A stretch of 64,000 bases of DNA from Microbacterium immunditiarum. GTDB lineage: Bacteria; Actinomycetota; Actinomycetes; Actinomycetales; Microbacteriaceae. Below the pieces are notes generated by a model. The model had not been told where the DNA came from and made no database searches. It saw nothing but the letters and a program-made list of their open reading frames with translations. Below are positions 15,190 through 46,909 of this stretch, piece after piece (position 1 is the first letter of the stretch; each line of letters begins with the position of its first letter). The stretch lies in contig NZ_JACCBV010000001.1 in the NCBI RefSeq assembly GCF_013409785.1, forward strand, positions 3,658,001 to 3,722,000, written 5' to 3'. The translations under genes were made by a program, and so were the position numbers.

Positions 15190-16307
15190 TCGCGATCGGC
15201 GCAGGCGCGGACGACTTCCGGTTGCGGGCGTTCCGCTGGATGGGGCGCCACCGGTGGGGGTGGATCGTCTCCATCTGGACGCCGGTGCTGATGATCGGGC
15301 CGCTCATCGCGACGATCCAGGACCCGACGCCGGTCGCGCTCGCGGCCCTCGCGGTCGTGCCGGGCCTCTTCGCGACCTTCGTGTGGCTCGCGATCGAGAC
15401 GCCGGACTGGACACTTCGCGTCATCCGCCCCCTCGCCCTCACCGCGCTCGTCGGCGCGTGCACCGCTGTCGTGACCTCGACGGGTGAGGGATGGATCTCG
15501 GCATGGGGCTTCGCGGGAGTCGCGGCCGCGATCGGCTTCCCCGCCCTCGGCAGCGCGATCGCGCTCGTAGCGTCGGCGGTCGTGGCAGCGGCGACGACCG
15601 CGACGGTCGCGCCGCACACGATCGTGGCGGCGGCCGCGACGGTGCTCTTCAGCGGGATCGGCGCGTTCGTCATCCAGCAGCTCGCCGTCAGCAACGCCGA
15701 GCTCGAGCGCACACGGCGGCTGCTCGCCCGCTCCGCCGTCGAGGAAGAGCGCCTGCGCTTCGCGCGAGACCTGCACGATGTGGCCGGGCACACACTGTCG
15801 GTCATCGTCGTGAAGGCCGAGACGGCGCGGCGGCTGGCGCCGACTGACCCGGATGCCGCGGCCGAGCACGCCGCCGATATCGAGCGCCTCGGGCGCGACG
15901 CCCTGCGTGAGCTGCGCACCGCGGTCGCCGGCTACAGGCGGTCGTCGCTGGACGCCGAGCTCGAGCGCGCGCGCACGTCTCTCACCTCGCGCGGCGTGGA
16001 CCTCGCCGTGCGCAAGGACGCCGGGGACCTCGACGCCGAGATCGACGCGCTGTTCGCTTCGGTCGTGCTCGAGGCATCGACGAATCTCCTGCGTCACGCG
16101 ATGCGCCCGACGCTGTGCCGTGTGACCGTGACCGCGGGGCCGTCTCGCGCGTCGATCGAGGTCGAGGACGACGGCGTCGCCCCGCCGCCCGTGCGCGAGG
16201 GCACCGGCCTCACCGGGCTGCGCGAGCGCGTGCGGCGCCTCGGCGGCGAGCTCGTCGTCGAGGCGGACGGCGGCGGCATCCGTCTGCGGGCGGAGGTGCC
16301 CGCATGA
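15186..16307 (+). CDS. Sensor histidine kinase, HisKA_3 type
   Basis: This is a 373-residue kinase. About six membrane helices in residues 20-165 are followed by a short coiled coil (LAVSNAELERTRRLLARSA). The phospho-acceptor His lies in FARDLHDVAGHTLSVIVV (about residue 199), and the HATPase domain includes EASTNLLRHA and GTGLTGLRERVRRLGGEL. The GTG start sits in the GGGAGGTGA overlap with the DUF6069-like gene. The ATG of the response regulator overlaps the stop (ATGA). Three genes thus form one tightly coupled operon. Confidence 0.9.
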   Translation: MIAIGAGADDFRLRAFRWMGRHRWGWIVSIWTPVLMIGPLIATIQDPTPVALAALAVVPGLFATFVWLAIETPDWTLRVIRPLALTALVGACTAVVTSTGEGWISAWGFAGVAAAIGFPALGSAIALVASAVVAAATTATVAPHTIVAAAATVLFSGIGAFVIQQLAVSNAELERTRRLLARSAVEEERLRFARDLHDVAGHTLSVIVVKAETARRLAPTDPDAAAEHAADIERLGRDALRELRTAVAGYRRSSLDAELERARTSLTSRGVDLAVRKDAGDLDAEIDALFASVVLEASTNLLRHAMRPTLCRVTVTAGPSRASIEVEDDGVAPPPVREGTGLTGLRERVRRLGGELVVEADGGGIRLRAEVPA

Positions 16308-39219: not shown

Positions 39220-39993
39220 ATGGCGAAGGGCGGCAGCTCGCGTGCGCGCGGGCGGAGTTCCGGGCGAGGACGACGGCCCTCTCCGGCTCCGCCGCGCACC
39301 CCGGGGACGTCTGCCGTGAAAGCGTCGGGCCGAAACCGGCCGAAGTCCGCGCCGGACGCCCCCGAGGAGACGATCCGGCCCGACCGTTTCACCCTCGGCG
39401 CGATCCCCGGCGCCACGCCGGGCAAGTGGATCGCGACCTGGCGCGAGCGGGTTCCCGATGTCCCGCTCGAGCTCAGGCACATCTCGGTCTCAACTCAGCG
39501 CGAGGAGCTTCTCGCGCCGCGGGACCCCGACACGGACGAACCGCCCGTCGATGCCGCCCTCGTGCGCCTGCCGATCGTCCGCGAGGGCCTGCACGTCATT
39601 CCGCTGTACGACGAGGTTCCGGTCGTCGTCGTGTCGAAGGACTCGCACCTGAACGCCGCGGACGAACTCGAGCTCGCCGACCTGGCGGATGAAGTCGTCA
39701 TCGTCCCGCGCGACGACGTCCTCGGCATCGAGGTGCCGGGCGCCGTCGCGCCGTCGTTCGATCCGCCCGACGACACCGAGCAGGCGATCGCGACAGTCGC
39801 AACGGGGGTGGGGGTGGTCATCGTCCCGATGTCGCTCGCACGCCTCCACCACCGCCGCGACGTCGAGCATCGGCCGCTGCGCGACGGTCCGCCCTCGACG
39901 GTCGCCCTCGCCTGGCCCACCGACGCGCCGTCGCCGCTCGTGGAGACGTTCGTGGGGATCGTGCGCGGTCGGACGGCGAACTCCTCGCGCTGA
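39220..39993 (+). CDS. Stand-alone LysR-type effector (substrate-binding) domain protein
   Basis: This is a 257-residue protein. From about residue 60 it reads as a type 2 periplasmic-binding fold of the LysR effector domain: FTLGAIPGATPGKWIATWRE, VDAALVRLPIVREGLHVIPL, VPVVVVSKDSHLNAADELEL, and VATGVGVVIVPMSLARLHH. The LysR winged helix is absent. In its place is a 55-residue disordered tail very rich in Arg, Lys, Ser and Pro (GGSSRARGRSSGRGRR). It may be a ligand sensor that binds nucleic acid non-specifically or an anti-regulator; both are guesses. Confidence 0.82.
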   Translation: MAKGGSSRARGRSSGRGRRPSPAPPRTPGTSAVKASGRNRPKSAPDAPEETIRPDRFTLGAIPGATPGKWIATWRERVPDVPLELRHISVSTQREELLAPRDPDTDEPPVDAALVRLPIVREGLHVIPLYDEVPVVVVSKDSHLNAADELELADLADEVVIVPRDDVLGIEVPGAVAPSFDPPDDTEQAIATVATGVGVVIVPMSLARLHHRRDVEHRPLRDGPPSTVALAWPTDAPSPLVETFVGIVRGRTANSSR

Positions 39994-40057
39994 CGCGCGC
40001 CGAAACGGCCAACCCGGTCAGGGGTACCGACTGACGCGCCGGCGTCGCGCAGAGAAG

Positions 40058-40091
40058 GGGGGTGCCGCCGTCTGACCCCTGCGGCACCCCC
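40058..40091. terminator. Strong hairpin downstream of the CHAT gene cluster
   Basis: GGGGGTGCCGC (40058-40068) and GCGGCACCCCC (40081-40091) form a perfect 11-bp stem with a 12-base loop. It lies 64 bases after the rightward LysR-effector-like gene and about 170 bases past the leftward CHAT gene stop, so it can end either. The remaining 39994-40261 stretch holds only the motif noted at 40217-40244. Confidence 0.65.
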
Positions 40092-40216
40092 TTGGATCGG
40101 CGCTTTCGCGATCGCGTGCCGTTGGCATTCCCGAACCTGGCACTCCCCGGCCGATCGCGGCGCATCCCCAGACGGAGCCTGGCCGCGGCTCCGTGCGAGC
40201 GTCGTTCCACGATGTC

Positions 40217-40244
40217 GGAGCGCGTCCCTGCGCGCGTGATACAT
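40217..40244 (-). promoter_or_regulatory. Third copy of the upstream element seen in the sigma/subtilase promoters
   Basis: On the plus strand GGAGCGCG-N11-GTGATACAT matches GGAGCGCG-N11-CTGATACAC of the sigma-gene promoter and GGAGGGCG-N11-CTGATACAC of the subtilase promoter with identical spacing. The -10-like ATTGTG is missing at the expected place. It lies just beyond the 3' end of the CHAT gene and points away from the cluster. Confidence 0.35.
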
Positions 40245-40261
40245 ACGGGTCGGAAATTCCC

Positions 40262-42751
40262 TCAGAATCCCGCGCCGTGCGCTTGGAACGGCGCGATGAG
40301 ACCGGTGCGGGCGGATGCCTCGGCGAGCGCCACAGCCGGAGGCACCCCCGCTGCGAGACCCTCGTGCATTGCGCCGAGGAGCTCGCACGCGATGTCATCG
40401 GCGACGACCACGGGCGCCGCGATCACGCACCGCGTGCCTGCATGGAGCCAGATGCGCGTCATGCCGATCGCCTCCTCGCCCCACCGGACCGACGACCGGC
40501 CGACCTCGCATGCCGAGAGGACGACCGTGTCAGGGATGCGCGGGATGAGGTCGATGTCGTATCCGAAGAGGGTGCCGTCGGCGAGCTCAAGACCCGAGAA
40601 CATCGGGTTGTCCACGGCATGGTGGCCGTGGGCGGCGACGTGGAGCACGTCGACTCCGGCGGCGAGATCGGTGACGGATGCCGCATCGGCGGCCCTTCCG
40701 CGCAGGGTCCGCGCGCGCGACCAGGCGCGGGCCGCGGCATCCGTCTCCTCATCGCCCCTCGCGACGCGCGGGCCGACGACGAACCCGGCCGAGGACGGTG
40801 GGTCAGCGGGCGCGAAGCGCCGACGCGCCCAGAAGGAGGCCGACGGCGCGAGCGTGATCGCGCGCCCGGCCGATGCGGGGAGCATCATCCACGGGATGCC
40901 CGCGAGCACGCCGGGCGTGGTGATCACGACACGGTCGACGTCACCCGCGGCTGCGAGCGTCGGGGCCAGCAGCAGGTGCGACAGCCGGGCCAGGCGTCCG
41001 TCGAGCGCCCCGCGCACGACTCCGGCCAGCGCGCCGGCGACCATCGACGCGGACATGTCGAGGTCTGCGCGCAGACCCCTCAAGGCGGCGCGCACGCCCT
41101 CCCAGTCGAGCGCAACGATCGCACGCGACGACGCCGTCGCGACGACGCTGCTCAGACCGCGCCCGTCGAACACGAACGAGATCACCGCCTCGTGCGGACC
41201 GAGGACGCCCCGGACCTCGTCGAGCCCGACGCGTTCGGGGCCTCCCCCGACCCGCGACCACTGGCGTTCACGGATGCTGTCGCGAAGCCGCGCGGGTCGT
41301 CCCTCGCCGAGCCACTCCCCGTCGGATTGCTCCGCGCGCAGCACGCGCAGCTCCGCGAGCTCGGCCGCGAGCTCGGGGTCGTGCGGCGGGCGGACCGGGA
41401 GGATCGCTTGCGTGACGTGTCGCGCGCGCTCGGACCACTCGAACATGATCTCGGGCCTCCCGGACCGGACCGCCGAGGCGAGGCCGACAGAGAGTGGGCC
41501 GTTTCCCTGCAGGGAGCTCGACGCCGTCAGTTCGAGGCTCCCGCCGGATCGCTCGGCCCCTTCGAGGCGCTCGATCGCACGCGCGGCGTAGCGGCGGGCT
41601 TCGACCTCGCGGTCGAGCCGGCTCGCACGCTCCGCCCGCACCTCGTCGGCGAGAAGAGCCGCTTCGAGCGACGCGGTGCGCGGCAGGCGCGGGGCTCGGA
41701 TCGAGCGAGGATCGACCCCCGTGCGCAGCCGCGCGAGCAGATGCGTGAGCCGGAGGACGATCGCGTCGTTGCGGTGACCGAGACTCTCAAGCGTCGTCGC
41801 GAGGTCCTCCACCTCGGATGCCGAGGGCAGGCGCCCCGGCCGCTGCGCGGCCACGCCCGAACGGTCGATCGTCTGTACCGCGAGCCTCGCGCGAAGCCCG
41901 AGTGCTGCGGCCCTGGCGGCCCATCCGTCCGCCCCGAGCGAGCGGAAGCGCCTGCGCGCCGCGGCGCTCACGCGCGCGGCGCGGCTCGGAGCGTGCGAGA
42001 GGAGCGACCGCGCCAGCTGATACTCGGCCTCCGCACGGTCCTGCGTGATCCCGAGGCGCCCGAACACCTGAGCGACCTTCTCCAGCGATCGCTCCGCCTC
42101 GGTCGTCAGACCCGCTTCCCTGAGCACCTCGGCGCGATCCAGCTCGCCGATCGCGGCTGATGTCTCCGACGTGTCGCCGAGCGAGCCGCGAACGCTCTGC
42201 ATGATCTTGAGCGCGCTCACAAGGTCGCCCGCGAGCATGCGGAGGTAACCGCGGTTGTGGGCGGCCTGGTCCGCGTCGAGCACGAGCCCGGCTTCGCGAT
42301 AGATGCGCTCCGCCTCCAGGACGTCGCTCTCCGCCTCTTCGAGGCGCCCGCGGCTCATCTCGACGATGCTGCGGTTCATCCTCATGTGAGCAGCACGCAC
42401 CGGGCTGCCGGCGAGCCCGTCGATCGCCTTCGAGAGCCATCGCTCGGCGCTCTCGTGGCGACCGCGATCCATGTCGATCGACCCGAGCTGCCCATGCAGG
42501 ATCGCGATCGACTCGTCCGACAGCCCCGGAAGCGCGAGCGCCTCCAGGCACACCCGCTCGCCCTCGGCGGCGCTCGAGTGCTGGGCGATCAGGTACCCGG
42601 TCGTCCCGGCGATCCGGGCGCGCAGGTCGGTGTCGCCGAGCTTCTCCGCTGCCTCCGCCGCGGACGTCAGCGCGGCACGGGCGTCGTCGTGACGACCCAT
42701 GTTGGCGAGGTCGACCCCGCGCTGGTAGAGGGTCTCGGCATCGGTGGGCAC
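40262..42751 (-). CDS. TPR-CHAT protease
   Basis: This is an 829-residue protein. Residues 1-400 are helical tetratricopeptide-like repeats (YQRGVDLANMGRHDDARAAL, then ISQ-like AHNRGYLRMLAGDLVSALK). The C-terminal CHAT domain (about 560-829) carries the caspase-type dyad: His in HVAAHGHHAVDNPMF (about residue 707) and Cys in VVLSACEVGRSSVRWG (about 748), followed by GTRCVIAAPVVVADD. CHAT proteins are caspase-like proteases, and TPR-CHAT includes Csx29 of type III-E CRISPR. The GTG start lies 33 bases after the subtilase stop. Last gene of a five-gene leftward cluster. Substrate unknown; the small cluster proteins are candidates. Confidence 0.9.
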   Translation of the reverse strand: MPTDAETLYQRGVDLANMGRHDDARAALTSAAEAAEKLGDTDLRARIAGTTGYLIAQHSSAAEGERVCLEALALPGLSDESIAILHGQLGSIDMDRGRHESAERWLSKAIDGLAGSPVRAAHMRMNRSIVEMSRGRLEEAESDVLEAERIYREAGLVLDADQAAHNRGYLRMLAGDLVSALKIMQSVRGSLGDTSETSAAIGELDRAEVLREAGLTTEAERSLEKVAQVFGRLGITQDRAEAEYQLARSLLSHAPSRAARVSAAARRRFRSLGADGWAARAAALGLRARLAVQTIDRSGVAAQRPGRLPSASEVEDLATTLESLGHRNDAIVLRLTHLLARLRTGVDPRSIRAPRLPRTASLEAALLADEVRAERASRLDREVEARRYAARAIERLEGAERSGGSLELTASSSLQGNGPLSVGLASAVRSGRPEIMFEWSERARHVTQAILPVRPPHDPELAAELAELRVLRAEQSDGEWLGEGRPARLRDSIRERQWSRVGGGPERVGLDEVRGVLGPHEAVISFVFDGRGLSSVVATASSRAIVALDWEGVRAALRGLRADLDMSASMVAGALAGVVRGALDGRLARLSHLLLAPTLAAAGDVDRVVITTPGVLAGIPWMMLPASAGRAITLAPSASFWARRRFAPADPPSSAGFVVGPRVARGDEETDAAARAWSRARTLRGRAADAASVTDLAAGVDVLHVAAHGHHAVDNPMFSGLELADGTLFGYDIDLIPRIPDTVVLSACEVGRSSVRWGEEAIGMTRIWLHAGTRCVIAAPVVVADDIACELLGAMHEGLAAGVPPAVALAEASARTGLIAPFQAHGAGF

Positions 42752-42784
42752 TCTGCCATGATGGCGGTGCCGCCGGGCGCGAGG

Positions 42785-44479
42785 CTACTCGATACGCGAC
42801 GCGTCGAGTTGCACGACGACCTTCAGCGCGGCGTCGGTCGCCGCCGCCGTCGCGTCGACCCCACCCGCTGCACCGCCCATGAGCACGGGGGAGAGCTCAC
42901 GCGCGATGAGTCCGGCGACGTACGGCGCCGCAAAGGACGTGCCGCTCCAGATCGCGAACCCGCCTGTGAAGTCATCGGGATCGATCGTCTCGCGCCGGCG
43001 ACCGTACACGTCGTGGCGGGATCCCGGCTGCACCCCGCCCTGGAGCTGGGGAACGGTGCTCAGCACGGAGGTTCCCGGCGCGAAGGCGGTGACCCAGTCC
43101 CCGACGTTGCTGTACAGCGCCACAGCGGTGAGGTTGGGGTTGAGGGCGCCGATCGCGACGTGGGGCGCGAGCTCCGACGACTCGGGGAGAGTGATGTCAG
43201 GGTCGCCCCAGTTCCAGAGCGCTGCGGGGAACGCGGGCCGGTCCGTCGCGTCGTTGCCGGCGGAGCACACGACCGCGCAGCCCATGCTTCGCAGCTCGGA
43301 GAGGATCTCGTACAGCCTCGTGCTGAAGGCGCCATCCTCAGGCGTCTCGTGATAGTAACCGAGCGAGAGGTTCAGCACGTCGACGTGCTGAATGCCGTTG
43401 TCTCCGTCCTCCTTCATCCAGTCGATCAGCTCCTCGAGCGCCCGGATGAGCTCCGACTCCAGCACTGTGCCGTTGCTGTCGGCCACGCGGATCGTCACGA
43501 GGTCGGCCTCGGCCGCGACCTGACGGACGATGCCGGCCACGAAGGTGCCGTGCCCGGACGCGCCGTCGATGAAGCCATCGAGTGGCCCGCTGAGGTCACC
43601 GTGGAGCTCGGGGTTCGTCGACTCGTCCTCGATCCCGATCACGCCTTCGATCGCGGCCGACGCGACCCGTCGGCGAACGATCATGCGGTCCGGACCGGGC
43701 GACGTCTCGTCTCGTCCGGGCGGGAGCCACTCGTGCTCGCCGCATCCGGTGTCGACGATCGCGACCACCGGCCGCCGGCCACCGTCCTCGAGCTCGAGCA
43801 CGCGCGTCGGCGCGGGGCCGACGTACGAGGCCATCTCGAGGCCGCCCGATCCGGGGAAGGCGTACCCCTCCAGTCCGGCGGGATTGGTCTTCGAGTACGG
43901 GTTCGTCTTCGAATACGGATTCGTCTTCGAATACGGGTTCGTCTTCGAATACGGGTTCACCCCCGCCGGGTCGACCGCCAGCAGGTGGTCGAGCCCGACG
44001 CGCCGGAGCGGGTCGTCCTCCCTGGGCACGTACCCGTCCTTCCGGCGCGACCGTCTCGCGCGCTCCTTGGGAGCGGCCGACCGCGCAGCGTCGAGGGCCC
44101 GCGAACGGGCGTCCCGCCCGTCGATGGCCAGCAGTCGAGCACGCTGCAGCAGGCGCCACGAGTCGATCGGCGGCACCGGCTCGTCGTCACGGTTCTCGCG
44201 GGGGGATTGGAAGATGACCGCGCGCGAGAGCTGCTCGCGCGACTCGGTTTGCCCAGGAACGGACTCCACGTGCACGTCCCAGCCGAGTGCGGCCCCCGCC
44301 CTCCGGAGGAGTTCCTCCGGCTCCGCCTTGTCACCCGAGATGAGGAGGTAGCCGGGAGCGTACATCGTGCCGAAGGCTCGAACGCCCGGCACGGGCTCGA
44401 GCGTCGGGTCGAGCGGCACCCCCCTCGGCTCGTCGGCCGCCTCCCGCTCTCGCCACGTGCGTACCGGCTTGTCAGGCAT
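42785..44479 (-). CDS. Subtilisin-like (S8) serine protease with N-terminal adaptor-like domain and NPYSKT repeats
   Basis: This is a 564-residue protein without signal peptide, so probably cytoplasmic. Residues about 40-130 (YLLISGDKAEPEELLRRAGA...RLLQRARLLA) look like the adjacent 113-residue protein. Residues about 174-198 are four tandem NPYSKT units. The catalytic triad is intact: Asp in VVAIVDTGCGEHEW (about 243), His in GHGTFVAGI (about 310), Asn in CSAGNDATD and Ser in WSGTSFAAPYVAG (about 515). The ATG of MPDKPVRTW is chosen after GGGGAACGAG. A 19-codon upstream ORF on the same leader (ATG near 44531) ends inside this start. It has its own copy of the cluster promoter. Confidence 0.9.
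   Translation of the reverse strand: MPDKPVRTWREREAADEPRGVPLDPTLEPVPGVRAFGTMYAPGYLLISGDKAEPEELLRRAGAALGWDVHVESVPGQTESREQLSRAVIFQSPRENRDDEPVPPIDSWRLLQRARLLAIDGRDARSRALDAARSAAPKERARRSRRKDGYVPREDDPLRRVGLDHLLAVDPAGVNPYSKTNPYSKTNPYSKTNPYSKTNPAGLEGYAFPGSGGLEMASYVGPAPTRVLELEDGGRRPVVAIVDTGCGEHEWLPPGRDETSPGPDRMIVRRRVASAAIEGVIGIEDESTNPELHGDLSGPLDGFIDGASGHGTFVAGIVRQVAAEADLVTIRVADSNGTVLESELIRALEELIDWMKEDGDNGIQHVDVLNLSLGYYHETPEDGAFSTRLYEILSELRSMGCAVVCSAGNDATDRPAFPAALWNWGDPDITLPESSELAPHVAIGALNPNLTAVALYSNVGDWVTAFAPGTSVLSTVPQLQGGVQPGSRHDVYGRRRETIDPDDFTGGFAIWSGTSFAAPYVAGLIARELSPVLMGGAAGGVDATAAATDAALKVVVQLDASRIE
43887..43958 (-). repeat. Four tandem 18-bp units encoding NPYSKT in the subtilase
   Basis: Four adjacent 18-base copies of GTCTTCGAATACGGGTTC (plus strand) differ at only one to two wobble bases. 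The protein product is a flexible linker between the adaptor-like domain and the protease domain. The near identity of the DNA suggests recent slippage or expansion, so copy number may vary among strains. Confidence 0.9.
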
Positions 44480-44541
44480 CGTCTCGTTCCCCAATCGTCG
44501 TGTTTTCCCCTGGCGCGCGACCACGGGTCATCCGCGCAGCC

Positions 44542-44594
44542 GCGCCCATTGTGCCCACGGGTACCGGGAGGGCGAAAGGGCGCGGCTGATACAC
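44542..44594 (-). promoter_or_regulatory. Cluster promoter copy upstream of the subtilase gene
   Basis: On the minus strand the order is GTGTATCAG (44586-44594), 8 bases, TTTCGC (44572-44577), 18 bases, CACAAT (44548-44553), then GGGCGC. Every spacing equals that of the sigma-gene promoter at 46025-46077. The 127-base gap between the subtilase and the 113-residue gene holds nothing else but the 19-codon upstream ORF. It probably is recognised by the cluster's own sigma factor or by a dedicated activator. Confidence 0.7.
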
Positions 44595-44606
44595 GCACCC
44601 CGGCGG

Positions 44607-44948
44607 TCAGGCATCCGGTGTCGCGATCCGGTCGAGCTCGACGCCGATCAGGTCGGTGTGACGGCTCTTCGCCCGGCGCAGCAGCCGAGCCGCGTCGACC
44701 GGAGAGGCGTCGGCGTCGACCTCTTGGGAGAGGATCCGGACCAGATGCGGCCGCACCGGATGCACCCCGCCCAGCGCCCGCGTCTCGCGCTCCACCTCGA
44801 CGGGGTCGACCGGCCGGCCGCCCAGGGTCTCGGGTACGAGCTCCCATCCCAGCTCGTCCGCCGATTCGCGCAGCGCCTCGATGATCGACGCGAGGCGGTC
44901 GGGCCGGGTGACCAGCAGCTGCGTCCGCACGTACTCCGAATCGGCCAA
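44607..44948 (-). CDS. Small adaptor-like protein resembling the subtilase N-terminal domain
   Basis: This is a 113-residue soluble protein. A TTG start lies 3 bases after the stop of the preceding gene, with GAGGTG as ribosome site, so translation is coupled. QLLVTRPDRLASIIEALRES...LGWELVPETLGG...PVDAARLLRRAKSR follows the same order of strand, helix, LGW strand and late RLLxRA helix as residues 40-130 of the subtilase. I read it as a free copy of that domain that may bind the protease through like-with-like contact, as effector-associated domains do. The relationship is by eye and needs a profile comparison. No enzyme motif. Confidence 0.68.
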   Translation of the reverse strand: MADSEYVRTQLLVTRPDRLASIIEALRESADELGWELVPETLGGRPVDPVEVERETRALGGVHPVRPHLVRILSQEVDADASPVDAARLLRRAKSRHTDLIGVELDRIATPDA

Positions 44949-44951
44949 GCG

Positions 44952-45416
44952 TCACACCTCGAACTGAGGCGTCTGGAAGTCCCTCATGCCGTCGTCGGAG
45001 CGCACCACGAGCCGCAGCCGCGACACCCCGGGCGTCACGCCCTCGAAGGCGAAGCGCCCGTGCTCGCCGGCATCCGCCGACCACTCTCGGGACTCCTGCG
45101 TAAGCCGGATCGCGAGCGCGTCGGCATCCGTCCACCCGTCGACGCGCCGCAGTCCCTCCTCTGTGGCCGTCACATGCAGCAGCACGCTCGTCGTCCCGTC
45201 GCTGAACTGCAGAGTCGCGGTGTCGCTCTCGCCTCGGACGGCGGCCGTCTCGGCCTCGACCAGTGTCAGCAGGGCGTACTCGCGCGACAGGTCCTCGACG
45301 GCGACGGCGGCGACCATGCGATCGACGAGGTCGGCCGGCACAGGGTCGATCGCACTCCACATCACGCGCATTCGTGCGAAGAGCGCCGCATCCGCGGCGA
45401 AATCCTCATCGTGCAT
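44952..45416 (-). CDS. Sigma-factor-linked protein, possible anti-sigma factor or protease target
   Basis: This is a 154-residue protein. Residues 1-50 are helical and include MWSAIDPVPADLVDRMVAA. The rest is beta-rich, with FEGVTPGVSRLRLVVRSDDG near the end resembling a carboxypeptidase-regulatory-like Ig fold. There is no zinc anti-sigma motif and no membrane segment. The ATG overlaps the end of the sigma-factor gene by 11 bases, the usual place for an anti-sigma factor. By analogy with Csx30 of type III-E CRISPR it could hold the sigma factor until cut by the CHAT protease. That is inference. Confidence 0.65.
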   Translation of the reverse strand: MHDEDFAADAALFARMRVMWSAIDPVPADLVDRMVAAVAVEDLSREYALLTLVEAETAAVRGESDTATLQFSDGTTSVLLHVTATEEGLRRVDGWTDADALAIRLTQESREWSADAGEHGRFAFEGVTPGVSRLRLVVRSDDGMRDFQTPQFEV

Positions 45417-46023
45417 CTCGATCCTCTCCCCATCCGTCGCTCTGCAGGAGCGTTCGGAGCTTGCCGAGGCATCGCTGACGTGTCGGGCCGATCGAGCCGA
45501 TCGGCATCGAAAGGTCCTGTGCGATCCGTGCGTAGTCGGGACGCTCCTCGAACGCCACGATGCGCAGCAGTCGCTGACAGCGGTCGTCGAGTCGGGCGAC
45601 GGCCAGCCACAGCCGGCGACTCTCGTCATCGGCCGCGGCGACATCCTCGGCTGAATCGTGGACAGGCAGGTGCGGTTCGAGGTCCTCGGCTTCGGTCGCG
45701 TCGGCGCGGCGGTGCTGCTTGCCGACCCGCCACGCCTCGCGGCGTGCCGTGGTCGTCAGCCATCCCGACACCGCGAGGGGGTCGGCGATGGACTCGTGCC
45801 GGCGCACGAGCGTCAGCCACGTCGTCTGGACGACGTCTTCCGCGAGCGCCCGGTCGAGCCCGTACGCCCGCACGACGTGCCACAGCAGCGGCGTGAGCAG
45901 GCGCACGAGGTCGTCCATGGCGCGCGCGTCGCCGTCGCGCCAGGCGACGAAGAGCGCGGCGGCGCGCTGCCACCGCGCCGGTTCGGCGGCATCCGAAGAT
46001 GCCGCCGCCTCAGCGTGGGTCAT
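45406..46023 (-). CDS. Sigma-70 family (ECF-like) RNA polymerase sigma factor
   Basis: This is a 205-residue protein with only regions 2 and 4. Region 2 contains RALAEDVVQTTWLTLVRR and region 4 contains LDDRCQRLLRIVAFEE and the helix-turn-helix PDYARIAQDLSMPIGSIGPT. I chose the ATG of MTHAEAAASS. The ATG three codons upstream (46032) lies inside the CACAAT promoter box, so the message is probably leaderless or nearly so. First gene of the cluster, preceded by a promoter copied before the subtilase gene, which suggests autoregulation. Confidence 0.88.
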   Translation of the reverse strand: MTHAEAAASSDAAEPARWQRAAALFVAWRDGDARAMDDLVRLLTPLLWHVVRAYGLDRALAEDVVQTTWLTLVRRHESIADPLAVSGWLTTTARREAWRVGKQHRRADATEAEDLEPHLPVHDSAEDVAAADDESRRLWLAVARLDDRCQRLLRIVAFEERPDYARIAQDLSMPIGSIGPTRQRCLGKLRTLLQSDGWGEDRDAR

Positions 46024-46024
46024 A

Positions 46025-46077
46025 GCGCCCATTGTGTCCACACCCGAGGGGAGCGCGAAAGTCCGGGACTGATACAC
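46025..46077 (-). promoter_or_regulatory. Cluster promoter copy upstream of the sigma-factor gene
   Basis: On the minus strand GTGTATCAG (46069-46077), 8 bases, TTTCGC (46055-46060), 18 bases, CACAAT (46031-46036), then GGGCGC. The spacing of TTTCGC and CACAAT fits a -35/-10 pair, and GTGTATCAG would be an upstream operator or activator site. A start about 7 bases after CACAAT falls on ATG 46023. Confidence 0.7.
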
Positions 46078-46144
46078 GGGATCGGCCGGTTTCACAGGCG
46101 ATCCTCGGTCGCGCCCATCCCCCCGCCGCACCTAGAATCGCGCC

Positions 46145-46909
46145 ATGGCCGCCCCCCTCCTGTACGTCTGCGTGCGGCCGCAGAAGGGTGCGGCGGAAGC
46201 GGAGTACGAATCGTTCCGGCAGGCGATGCGCCTGGAGCCCTCCGAGCTGGATCACCTGGACCTCGTGCACGAGCCCCTGCCGCCCGACGCGGCGGAGCGC
46301 TGGCGCGGATTCGTCGTCGGCGGAAGCCCGTTCAACGTCTCCGACCCCGAGTCGACGAAGACGGACGTCCAGCGCAGGCTCGAAGCCGGCCTGGAGCTCA
46401 TCGCCGAGTGGGCGGCGGACCCCGCGGCGGGCGATGCGGGAACCGCCGCGTTCTTCACGTGCTACGGCATCGGCATCGTGACCCGGATGCTCGGCGGCGA
46501 GGTAAGCCGCGCGTTCCCCGAGGACACGGGGCCGACGATCGTGAACCTCACCGCCGAGGGGAGTCGCGATCCCCTGTTCGGCGACCTCGCGCACCGGTTC
46601 ACGGCGCTCGCGGCGCACAAGGAGGGGACGGGACGACTGCCCGACGGCGCGGTCCTCCTGGCCACGAACATCGGATGCCCCGTCCAGGCCTACCGCGTCG
46701 GAGACCGCCTGTGGGCGACGCAGTTCCACCCCGAGCCGACGACGCAGGCGTTCACCGAGCGCATGGCCGTGTACCGCGACGACGGGTACTTCGCCGCGGA
46801 CGACTACGACGTCATCGCGAGCCGCGTGCTCGCCGCATCCGTCACCGAGCCGGGCCGCGCGCTGAGGGCCTTCGCCCGCCGTTTCGCGCCGGCCGCTCCG
46901 GTCGCATAG
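46145..46909 (+). CDS. Class I glutamine amidotransferase-like protein
   Basis: This is a 254-residue protein. The Cys-His-Glu triad of class I amidotransferases is visible: Cys in FFTCYGIGIVTRML (about residue 105, where GMP synthase has CYGxQ) and His/Glu in WATQFHPEPTTQAF (about 198-200). It is of the GuaA-like stand-alone type that frees ammonia from glutamine for an unknown partner, or hydrolyses gamma-glutamyl bonds as PuuD does. It is divergent from the sigma-factor gene with a shared 67-base promoter gap; no other link is evident. Confidence 0.85.
   Translation: MAAPLLYVCVRPQKGAAEAEYESFRQAMRLEPSELDHLDLVHEPLPPDAAERWRGFVVGGSPFNVSDPESTKTDVQRRLEAGLELIAEWAADPAAGDAGTAAFFTCYGIGIVTRMLGGEVSRAFPEDTGPTIVNLTAEGSRDPLFGDLAHRFTALAAHKEGTGRLPDGAVLLATNIGCPVQAYRVGDRLWATQFHPEPTTQAFTERMAVYRDDGYFAADDYDVIASRVLAASVTEPGRALRAFARRFAPAAPVA

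Follow-up and report, generated by a model that had tools for sequence, protein, structure and literature searches.

Gene content of the cluster

The window analysed here, a stretch of 64,000 nucleotides (nt) from the 3.9-Mb, single-contig genome of Microbacterium immunditiarum (contig NZ_JACCBV010000001.1, positions 3,658,001 to 3,722,000), carries at positions 40262..46023 of its minus strand a cluster that encodes a sigma factor of the extracytoplasmic function (ECF) type, proteins of 154 and 113 residues, a subtilase and a TPR-CHAT protease. We propose that the products of these genes may form a protease-triggered switch in which the sigma factor, probably restrained by the 154-residue protein, turns on its own operon and a structured RNA encoded next to it. 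The original prediction, made from the letters of the window alone, had described five leftward genes, and all five open reading frames (ORFs) were located at this place:

45406..46023, minus strand: ECF-type sigma factor, probably of group ECF54 (Pfam Sigma70_r2, E 2.7e-9; TIGR02937, 65 bits; region 4 motif)
44952..45416, minus strand: 154-residue protein with two N-terminal helices, a stretch at residues 47-62 and an immunoglobulin-like beta-sandwich at residues 66-148 (AlphaFold2 model, mean predicted local distance difference test score, pLDDT, 86.8)
44607..44948, minus strand: 113-residue protein, free-standing and related to the N-terminal domain of the subtilase (ferredoxin-like topology; model pLDDT 89.9, predicted template modelling score, pTM, 0.82)
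42785..44524, minus strand: S8 subtilase, predicted to be cytoplasmic, with an N-domain, an NPYSKT repeat linker and a catalytic domain (Pfam Peptidase_S8, E 8.2e-21)
43871..43960, minus strand: four NPYSKT repeats and NPAGL, forming the subtilase's linker
40262..42751, minus strand: TPR-CHAT caspase-like protease with H708 and C748 (Pfam CHAT, E 3.7e-25; TPR)

The sigma gene and that of the 154-residue protein overlap at 45406-45416. The sigma factor starts at 46023 (MTHAEA) or, alternatively, at 46032 (MGAMTH); a longer ORF starting at 46131 was rejected because the promoter lies inside it. The cluster is flanked by a LysR-substrate-like gene, which is the next gene beyond CHAT and convergent with it, and by a class-I glutamine amidotransferase gene.

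Conservation of the gene set and its relation to ECF54

Within the genus, 28 loci that had been fetched for their CHAT gene were compared; L018-L020, fetched via the 113-residue protein and devoid of CHAT, and L061-L062, contig fragments of one genome, were not counted. The genes for the sigma factor, the 154-residue protein, the subtilase and CHAT are all present in that order in 26 of these loci, and of the two exceptions one (L025) ends at a contig edge and the other (L043) has no visible subtilase. A wider set of 80 named loci, the top 80 among 504 relatives from named genomes and some of them cut by contig ends, bears Microbacterium titles except for L067, L105 and L137 and contains the sigma factor in 74, the 154-residue protein in 75, the subtilase in 78 and CHAT in 80 cases. 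A CHAT homologue was found in 45 of 98 relatives and, own genome included, in 30 of 59 within the genus. In the phylum at large, the sigma gene lies directly upstream of the gene for the 154-residue protein in 27 of 30 loci fetched with a profile of the latter (none was found in L176 and L195, and L199 is a false match), and the place and strand of CHAT and subtilase vary relative to this pair. The four genes make up a module spread across Actinomycetota. Co-conservation, which the original prediction had named as a check, holds for these four; the 113-residue protein is not a conserved member.

Some of the records are unusual in themselves. L172 (8240-19501) and L173 (5542-17402) contain two or three genes for the 154-residue protein and two subtilase-CHAT sets, but within the fetched stretch a single sigma gene, an arrangement that would let several protease inputs converge on one sigma factor. 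The false match in L199 (8182-9600) is a helicase of odd architecture that is unrelated to the module: it has an EcoEI_R_C domain, and a CarboxypepD_reg domain is inserted in it. L067 (JASDDH010000015.1) is titled Planococcus sp. and encodes a CHAT protein of the Microbacterium type (57% identity), probably through mislabelling or contamination of the contig.

A neighbourhood of subtilase, CHAT and 'carboxypeptidase' genes is already listed for the sigma group ECF54, for which proteolytic control was proposed solely from the gene neighbourhood and no anti-sigma factor assumed (PMC8999054, section 3.3 and table). The cluster in itself is therefore not new. The neighbourhood seen here is probably the same: the sigma factor has regions 2 and 4 and no long extension, region 4 being recognised by a motif that is conserved across 16 aligned relatives, without a Pfam hit, and its neighbours are a subtilase, a CHAT protein and a protein of CarboxypepD_reg type, this domain scoring below the curated cut-off in relatives and being unseen in the protein of the window. 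New here are the probable anti-sigma factor, the free-standing subtilase N-domain, the shared promoter and the candidate new RNA family; in the open-licence literature no anti-sigma reading, promoter or RNA was found in print for the cluster.

The 154-residue protein as a probable anti-sigma factor

Neither the 154-residue nor the 113-residue protein matched anything in Pfam at E <= 1, and the clue to the former came from distant relatives. In the class to which genome G330 belongs, a relative of about 207 residues is present in 18 of 39 genomes (two more match only via RskA-like proteins), and its N-terminal domain has matches among the RskA factors of that class (hhalign E 1.4e-7; PF10099 at E ~1e-20 to 1e-22 in three of four). 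The family of the window's protein in turn matches these relatives at the profile level (E 4.1e-8). The domain resembles that of RskA-type anti-sigma factors (PF10099, RskA_N, zf-HC2); whereas those factors carry RskA_C, the G330-class relatives have a fusion to the beta-sandwich, and in the Microbacterium form no more than the final part of the domain remains, the two N-terminal helices being a possible remnant of it. Because its deep relatives carry an RskA-like domain, the 154-residue protein is probably a soluble anti-sigma factor, and its gene adjoins that of its sigma factor, as in such pairs. The low-confidence stretch at residues 47-62 includes R61, which is invariant in 64 sequences. 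The original prediction had coupled this protein to the sigma factor; as conserved neighbours the two do belong together, and a restraint of the sigma factor is supported indirectly, via the RskA-like relatives. A carboxypeptidase function was rejected as no peptidase domain is present, and the 'carboxypeptidase' of the ECF54 neighbourhood appears to be a regulatory beta-sandwich and not an enzyme.

Proteolysis could also act in the opposite sense. The proteases would then degrade the sigma factor and keep it low in the manner stated for ECF54 (PMC8999054, section 3.3), no anti-sigma factor would be involved, and the 154-residue protein would be an adaptor that hands the sigma factor to CHAT or the subtilase. 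Consistent with this, the gene for the 154-residue protein is duplicated along with the CHAT-subtilase sets, and not only with sigma, in L172 and L173. However, the RskA-like domain of the deep relatives and the occurrence of sigma-154 pairs without adjacent proteases argue against it, and we consider degradation of the sigma factor itself unlikely.

The two proteases and the 113-residue protein

The catalytic residues of both proteases are intact, as had been predicted. H708 and C748, the His-Cys dyad of CHAT, are invariant in an alignment of 13 family members, and regular expressions found the Asp, His and Ser motifs of the subtilase triad in 90, 92 and 92 of 92 distinct Microbacterium subtilases. 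A strongly hydrophobic stretch near the N terminus, defined as a 17-residue mean above 1.6 within the first 70 residues, is absent from all 92, and the claim of a cytoplasmic subtilase therefore holds for Microbacterium.

The linker between the N-domain and the catalytic domain carries 3-8 repeats such as NPYSKT, NPFTRT or NPYGST in the 60 proteins listed out of the 92. In five subtilase genes compared at the DNA level the repeats differ by synonymous changes, so that they seem to be maintained at the level of the protein. The repeats (NPYSKT, NPFTRT, NPYGST, NPFGHKT) are lineage-specific and yet near-identical within a given protein, as seen in the S8 genes of the window and of L012-L142.

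The 113-residue protein had been regarded as adaptor-like. We rejected a novel adaptor, since the protein is instead homologous to the subtilase's own N-terminal domain. It matches nine other genomes of the genus, in six of them within an ORF of about 540-560 residues, and shows 20-36% identity over an alignment of 46; compared directly by BLASTP, it scores weakly with the subtilase of the window (E 0.04, 12 residues). The element order b-a-b-a-b-a-b is ferredoxin-like, which would suit a subtilase propeptide, as would the position of the N-domain before the S8 domain; fold comparisons gave no significant match. Lone genes of this type, outside any cluster, occur in three species at the same chromosomal flanks (L018 2836-3156, L019 8688-9008, L020 9270-9587) with ratios of nonsynonymous to synonymous substitution rates of 0.14-0.43, indicating purifying selection. 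The sequences are most simply explained by an ancient partial duplication, the free N-domain that arose from it having since been maintained by selection.

A promoter motif shared by the module loci

Three matches to one promoter motif were found in the window where 0.05 were expected, all of them within the cluster and on its strand:

46051..46076, minus strand: promoter 1 of the operon, TGTATCA-N16-CTC, followed by the leader TGTGGACACAATGGGCGCTATGACC (alignment of sigma upstream regions)
44568..44593, minus strand: internal promoter copy with a leader remnant, upstream of the subtilase gene and after the gene for the 113-residue protein (pattern match)
40218..40243, minus strand: promoter 2, TGTATCA-N16-CTC, 18 nt past the CHAT stop codon (such a site in 80 of 95 distinct Microbacterium regions)

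TGTATCA is present in 79 of 89 usable regions of aligned sigma upstream DNA, and CTC follows in 94% of these; the 89 regions were not de-duplicated, and 22 sigma ORFs without a usable anchor, nine of them from outside Microbacterium, were left out. The spacing between promoter and start codon does not preserve the reading frame, which shows that the element is non-coding. The internal copy before the subtilase gene is confined to one of 106 Microbacterium entries. Outside Microbacterium, 44 loci (709 kb) gave 41 matches to [C/T]GTATCA-N15-17-CTC and none to the same motif reversed. Of these matches, 18 are situated 11-374 nt ahead of the start of a sigma, subtilase or 154-type gene, and two others fall just inside the annotated sigma start. 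The promoter [T/C]GTATCA-N16-CTC thus recurs at module loci across the phylum, and we infer that the sigma factor positively autoregulates through it.

The motif was also seen in front of other genes. In G493 and G028 it precedes a FAD_binding_4 oxidoreductase gene and a gene for a small DUF6220-like membrane protein (L285 844-1701, L287 3-749; L286 713-1192, L288 271-753), which are possible further targets of the sigma factor. In three loci of the same class (L192, L193 and L198) it also stands before the gene of a large P-loop protein (motif GPAGxGxTRLVTEA) about 2 kb beyond CHAT. L187, a locus of the same phylum, has at 15637 a post-CHAT promoter that is followed not by an RNA but by a protein which appears to carry a signal peptide.

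A candidate RNA family downstream of CHAT

The region after CHAT holds two further features:

40055..40210, minus strand: candidate sigma-dependent small RNA, its start placed about 8 nt past the -10 element (match to model R2 at 40045-40217, 52.9 bits, the sequence being a training member)
40058..40091, minus strand: GC-rich 3' hairpin of this RNA with CTTCTCT behind it, resembling a terminator although a full T run is missing (alignment)

Of 95 distinct (de-duplicated) Microbacterium regions, 80 have a site of the promoter 2 type 6-73 nt past the stop codon of CHAT, and in 99% of these 80 its CTC is correctly spaced. The sequence that follows is about 155 nt long, mostly non-coding, and ends in a GC-rich hairpin. 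A small ORF in place of an RNA was rejected: within 175 nt the median closed ORF has 2 codons and the longest 46, and 56 of 83 regions lack any of at least 15. TGGGG occurs 2.17 times per 170 nt of the RNA region versus 0.71 in shuffled sequences.

The 83 sequences were aligned in two groups, A7 covering 26 of the 30 sequences of the first and A8 covering 38 of the 53 of the second, which includes the window. Cells changed on both sides of a helix numbered 59 in A7 versus 17.1 in shuffled and at most 9 in slid alignments, and 107 in A8 versus 29.7 and at most 38; some helix positions had been picked from these very alignments, a bias in their favour. For the long-range closing helix alone the count was 29 versus 10.5 shuffled and at most 19 slid, two weaker measures being reached by 10 and 33 of 500 shuffles. 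Each model also recognised members of the other group. R1, a model of the first group, matches at the expected position in 14 of the 24 loci of the second group that were searched, eight of them at E <= 0.01, and finds displaced copies 1.5-4.3 kb downstream in L044, L106 and L089; R2 recognises three of five first-group loci searched (E < 0.02). In a survey of 69 genomes R1 matched strongly in 10 (82-173 bits) and R2 in 13 others (72-132 bits). When the 59 genomes also scored for CHAT are considered, strong matches to either model fall in 18 of 30 CHAT-positive and in 0 of 29 CHAT-negative genomes, the own genome not being among the 18. No match at E <= 1 to the covariance models of Rfam 15 was obtained with window positions 39900-46300. 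We conclude that the region after CHAT appears to belong to a non-coding, covarying RNA family absent from Rfam. For the window's own copy the support consists of its promoter, its position, the 3' hairpin and membership in the aligned group, and the RNA gene seems to be switched on by the same sigma switch.

The region might instead be the 3' untranslated region and terminator of the operon, its promoter driving leftover transcription or antisense transcription against a convergent neighbour. Its location 6-73 nt past the CHAT stop codon, the strong hairpin at its end and the convergent LysR-substrate-like gene of the window would all suit this explanation. It does not, however, account for a dedicated promoter with well-kept spacing, nor for copies 1.5-8 kb downstream of CHAT in which the structure is kept (L044, L106, L089, G001). 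In addition, G496 has two RNA copies, each with a promoter (L284 2569-2740 and 5613-5787), one following a CHAT gene matched over residues 106-829 and cut by the fetched stretch, the other following a copy matched over residues 458-829, and similar regions with promoter and hairpin also lie after the final gene of loci from other classes (L188, L180, L191), of which R2 touches only L188, weakly (E 0.11). We therefore give a mere trailer of the operon a small chance, and favour a separate RNA gene.

A model for the switch and its alternatives

Read together, the gene set, the catalytic motifs, the co-conservation, the promoter motif, the covarying RNA family and the homology of the 113-residue protein to the N-domain suggest a self-amplifying, cytoplasmic sigma switch that is triggered by a protease and turns on a structured RNA; we give this model an even chance of being correct, and its signal, the order and sites of cleavage, inhibition by the N-domain, the sigma factor's use of the promoter and the function of the RNA are predictions. 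At rest, the 154-residue protein, consisting of a short anti-sigma segment and the beta-sandwich, would hold the co-translated sigma factor inactive. The TPR part of the CHAT protease would sense a signal, upon which CHAT would cut its partners, most likely the 154-residue protein in the flexible linker next to invariant R61 and/or the NP[FY]xx-T type repeat linker that tethers the N-terminal domain of the subtilase. The subtilase thus freed from its N-domain, which has a propeptide-like ferredoxin topology, would complete the destruction of the anti-sigma factor, and the 113-residue protein would damp the subtilase in trans. Free sigma factor would then transcribe from [T/C]GTATCA-N16-CTC both its own operon and the separate RNA of about 155 nt just after CHAT.

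A number of observations weigh against this model. Compared directly with RskA, the window's 154-residue family gave no match; it is linked to RskA only transitively, and the window-type protein lacks the first anti-sigma helices. Foldseek searches with the models of the 154-residue and 113-residue proteins gave no match at E <= 0.001. In some phylum loci the sigma-154 pair stands without adjacent CHAT or subtilase; when 10 pairs with no adjacent or an incomplete protease set were checked, nine genomes had a strong CHAT relative (for G276, the same copy that had been noted at a distance of 3 kb) and one, G476, showed a match in the TPR range only. Subtilases of the G330 class have a signal-peptide-like start (computed for L201, judged by eye for L200) and look secreted, so the subtilase step would not be universal and its role may differ there. 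Many linker repeats have K, R or H ahead of T/S, but others have S there or no residue. As to the RNA, further pair types in A7 do not exceed shuffles (301 of 500 reach the observed value), R1 has an off-site match in L121 (E 5e-4) and sees only the 3' hairpin of the window's RNA (15 bits), and 12 of the 30 CHAT-positive genomes, the window's own included, lack a strong match to R1 or R2. Weak R1 matches (24-36 bits), which were not counted, occur in 10 further genomes, four of them CHAT-negative. Single-sequence folding is not exceptional (z -1.85 for the window; z 0.08, the random level, for L110), and a scan for consensus terminators found none, in keeping with a 3' hairpin without a full T run.

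The RNA could also be more than an output. As a dedicated regulator made by the sigma factor, it might bind TPR-CHAT, or a complex of the 154-residue protein and the subtilase, through its UGGGG(A) loops and set the activity of the switch. Its co-occurrence with CHAT, its position 3' of the CHAT gene and the second RNA copy of G496 beside a partial second CHAT copy suggest such a role. Elsewhere, however, sites of this type come after different final genes (L188, L180), and plain antisense action would fit equally well; we regard regulation of the protease switch by the RNA as quite unlikely.

A role in phage defence had been raised at the outset, whereby infection would trigger CHAT and the freed sigma factor would turn on a protective or suicidal programme. 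The logic is that of the Csx29-Csx30-CASP-sigma pathway (PMC10028731), and among the PADLOC models the subtilase and IetS models match the subtilase (best E 1.5e-6) and BovA weakly matches the CHAT protein (E 0.03). On the other hand, no PADLOC model matches the sigma factor or the 113-residue or 154-residue protein at E <= 1, and the flanking pair of the window recurs in 16 of the 28 CHAT-fetched Microbacterium loci; in the 80 named loci the class-I glutamine amidotransferase is a neighbour in 37 and the LysR-substrate-like gene in 41. None of 50,697 phage records matched the 154-residue protein, and among 72,556 plasmid records there were 2 with a match to CHAT, neither match spanning 80% of the query. 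The locus looks vertically kept rather than like a mobile island, which makes defence against phages highly doubtful. Very improbable, finally, in view of the transitive homology to RskA, is a 154-residue protein that acts as a positive partner, as co-sigma factor or RNA polymerase adaptor, with a ligand-sensing beta-sandwich.

Comparison with known systems

The cluster shares with the ECF54 group an actinobacterial ECF sigma factor with subtilase, CHAT and 'carboxypeptidase' neighbours (PMC8999054). The review treats the last of these as a peptidase, whereas we see a CarboxypepD_reg-like domain on a probable anti-sigma factor, and its passages on the group mention neither the promoter nor the RNA found here. 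With an anti-sigma candidate, a predicted cleavage point at R61, two proteases, a phylum-wide promoter and a candidate RNA, the ECF54 pathway becomes directly testable in culturable soil bacteria, and the RNA family may be one of the main outputs of the switch.

The Csx29-Csx30-CASP-sigma pathway of type III-E CRISPR systems (Craspase, PMC10028731) likewise combines a TPR-CHAT protease, an inhibitor of a sigma factor and an ECF sigma factor. The sigma inhibitor of the Craspase pathway has 565 residues versus 154 for the candidate inhibitor here, and the set of the window differs in its second protease, its recurrent chromosomal site and the lack of matches to the RAMP (PF03787, for the Cas7-11 effector) and Cas1 (PF01867) families in the genome, controls being positive in 4 and 9 of 14 genomes and CRISPR arrays not having been searched for. 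No similarity to Csx30 or Csx29 was seen, in a weak test in which one listing comprised 60 of 139 matches; profile A6 gave 22 matches to PDB sequences at E <= 5, none named Csx30, and no Csx30 sequence was compared directly. The description as Craspase-like and without CRISPR fits the similar logic and, as far as RAMP and Cas1 matches go, the genome. The accompanying claim that no nucleic-acid sensor is involved may not hold, as a conserved structured RNA accompanies the module; if this RNA did regulate CHAT, the principle of an RNA-controlled TPR-CHAT enzyme would be the same as in Craspase, but with a host-encoded RNA and outside CRISPR. A CRISPR-free counterpart could shed light on whether the TPR-CHAT/sigma circuit is older than its role in immunity, and the analogy to Craspase is apt in logic, not as membership.

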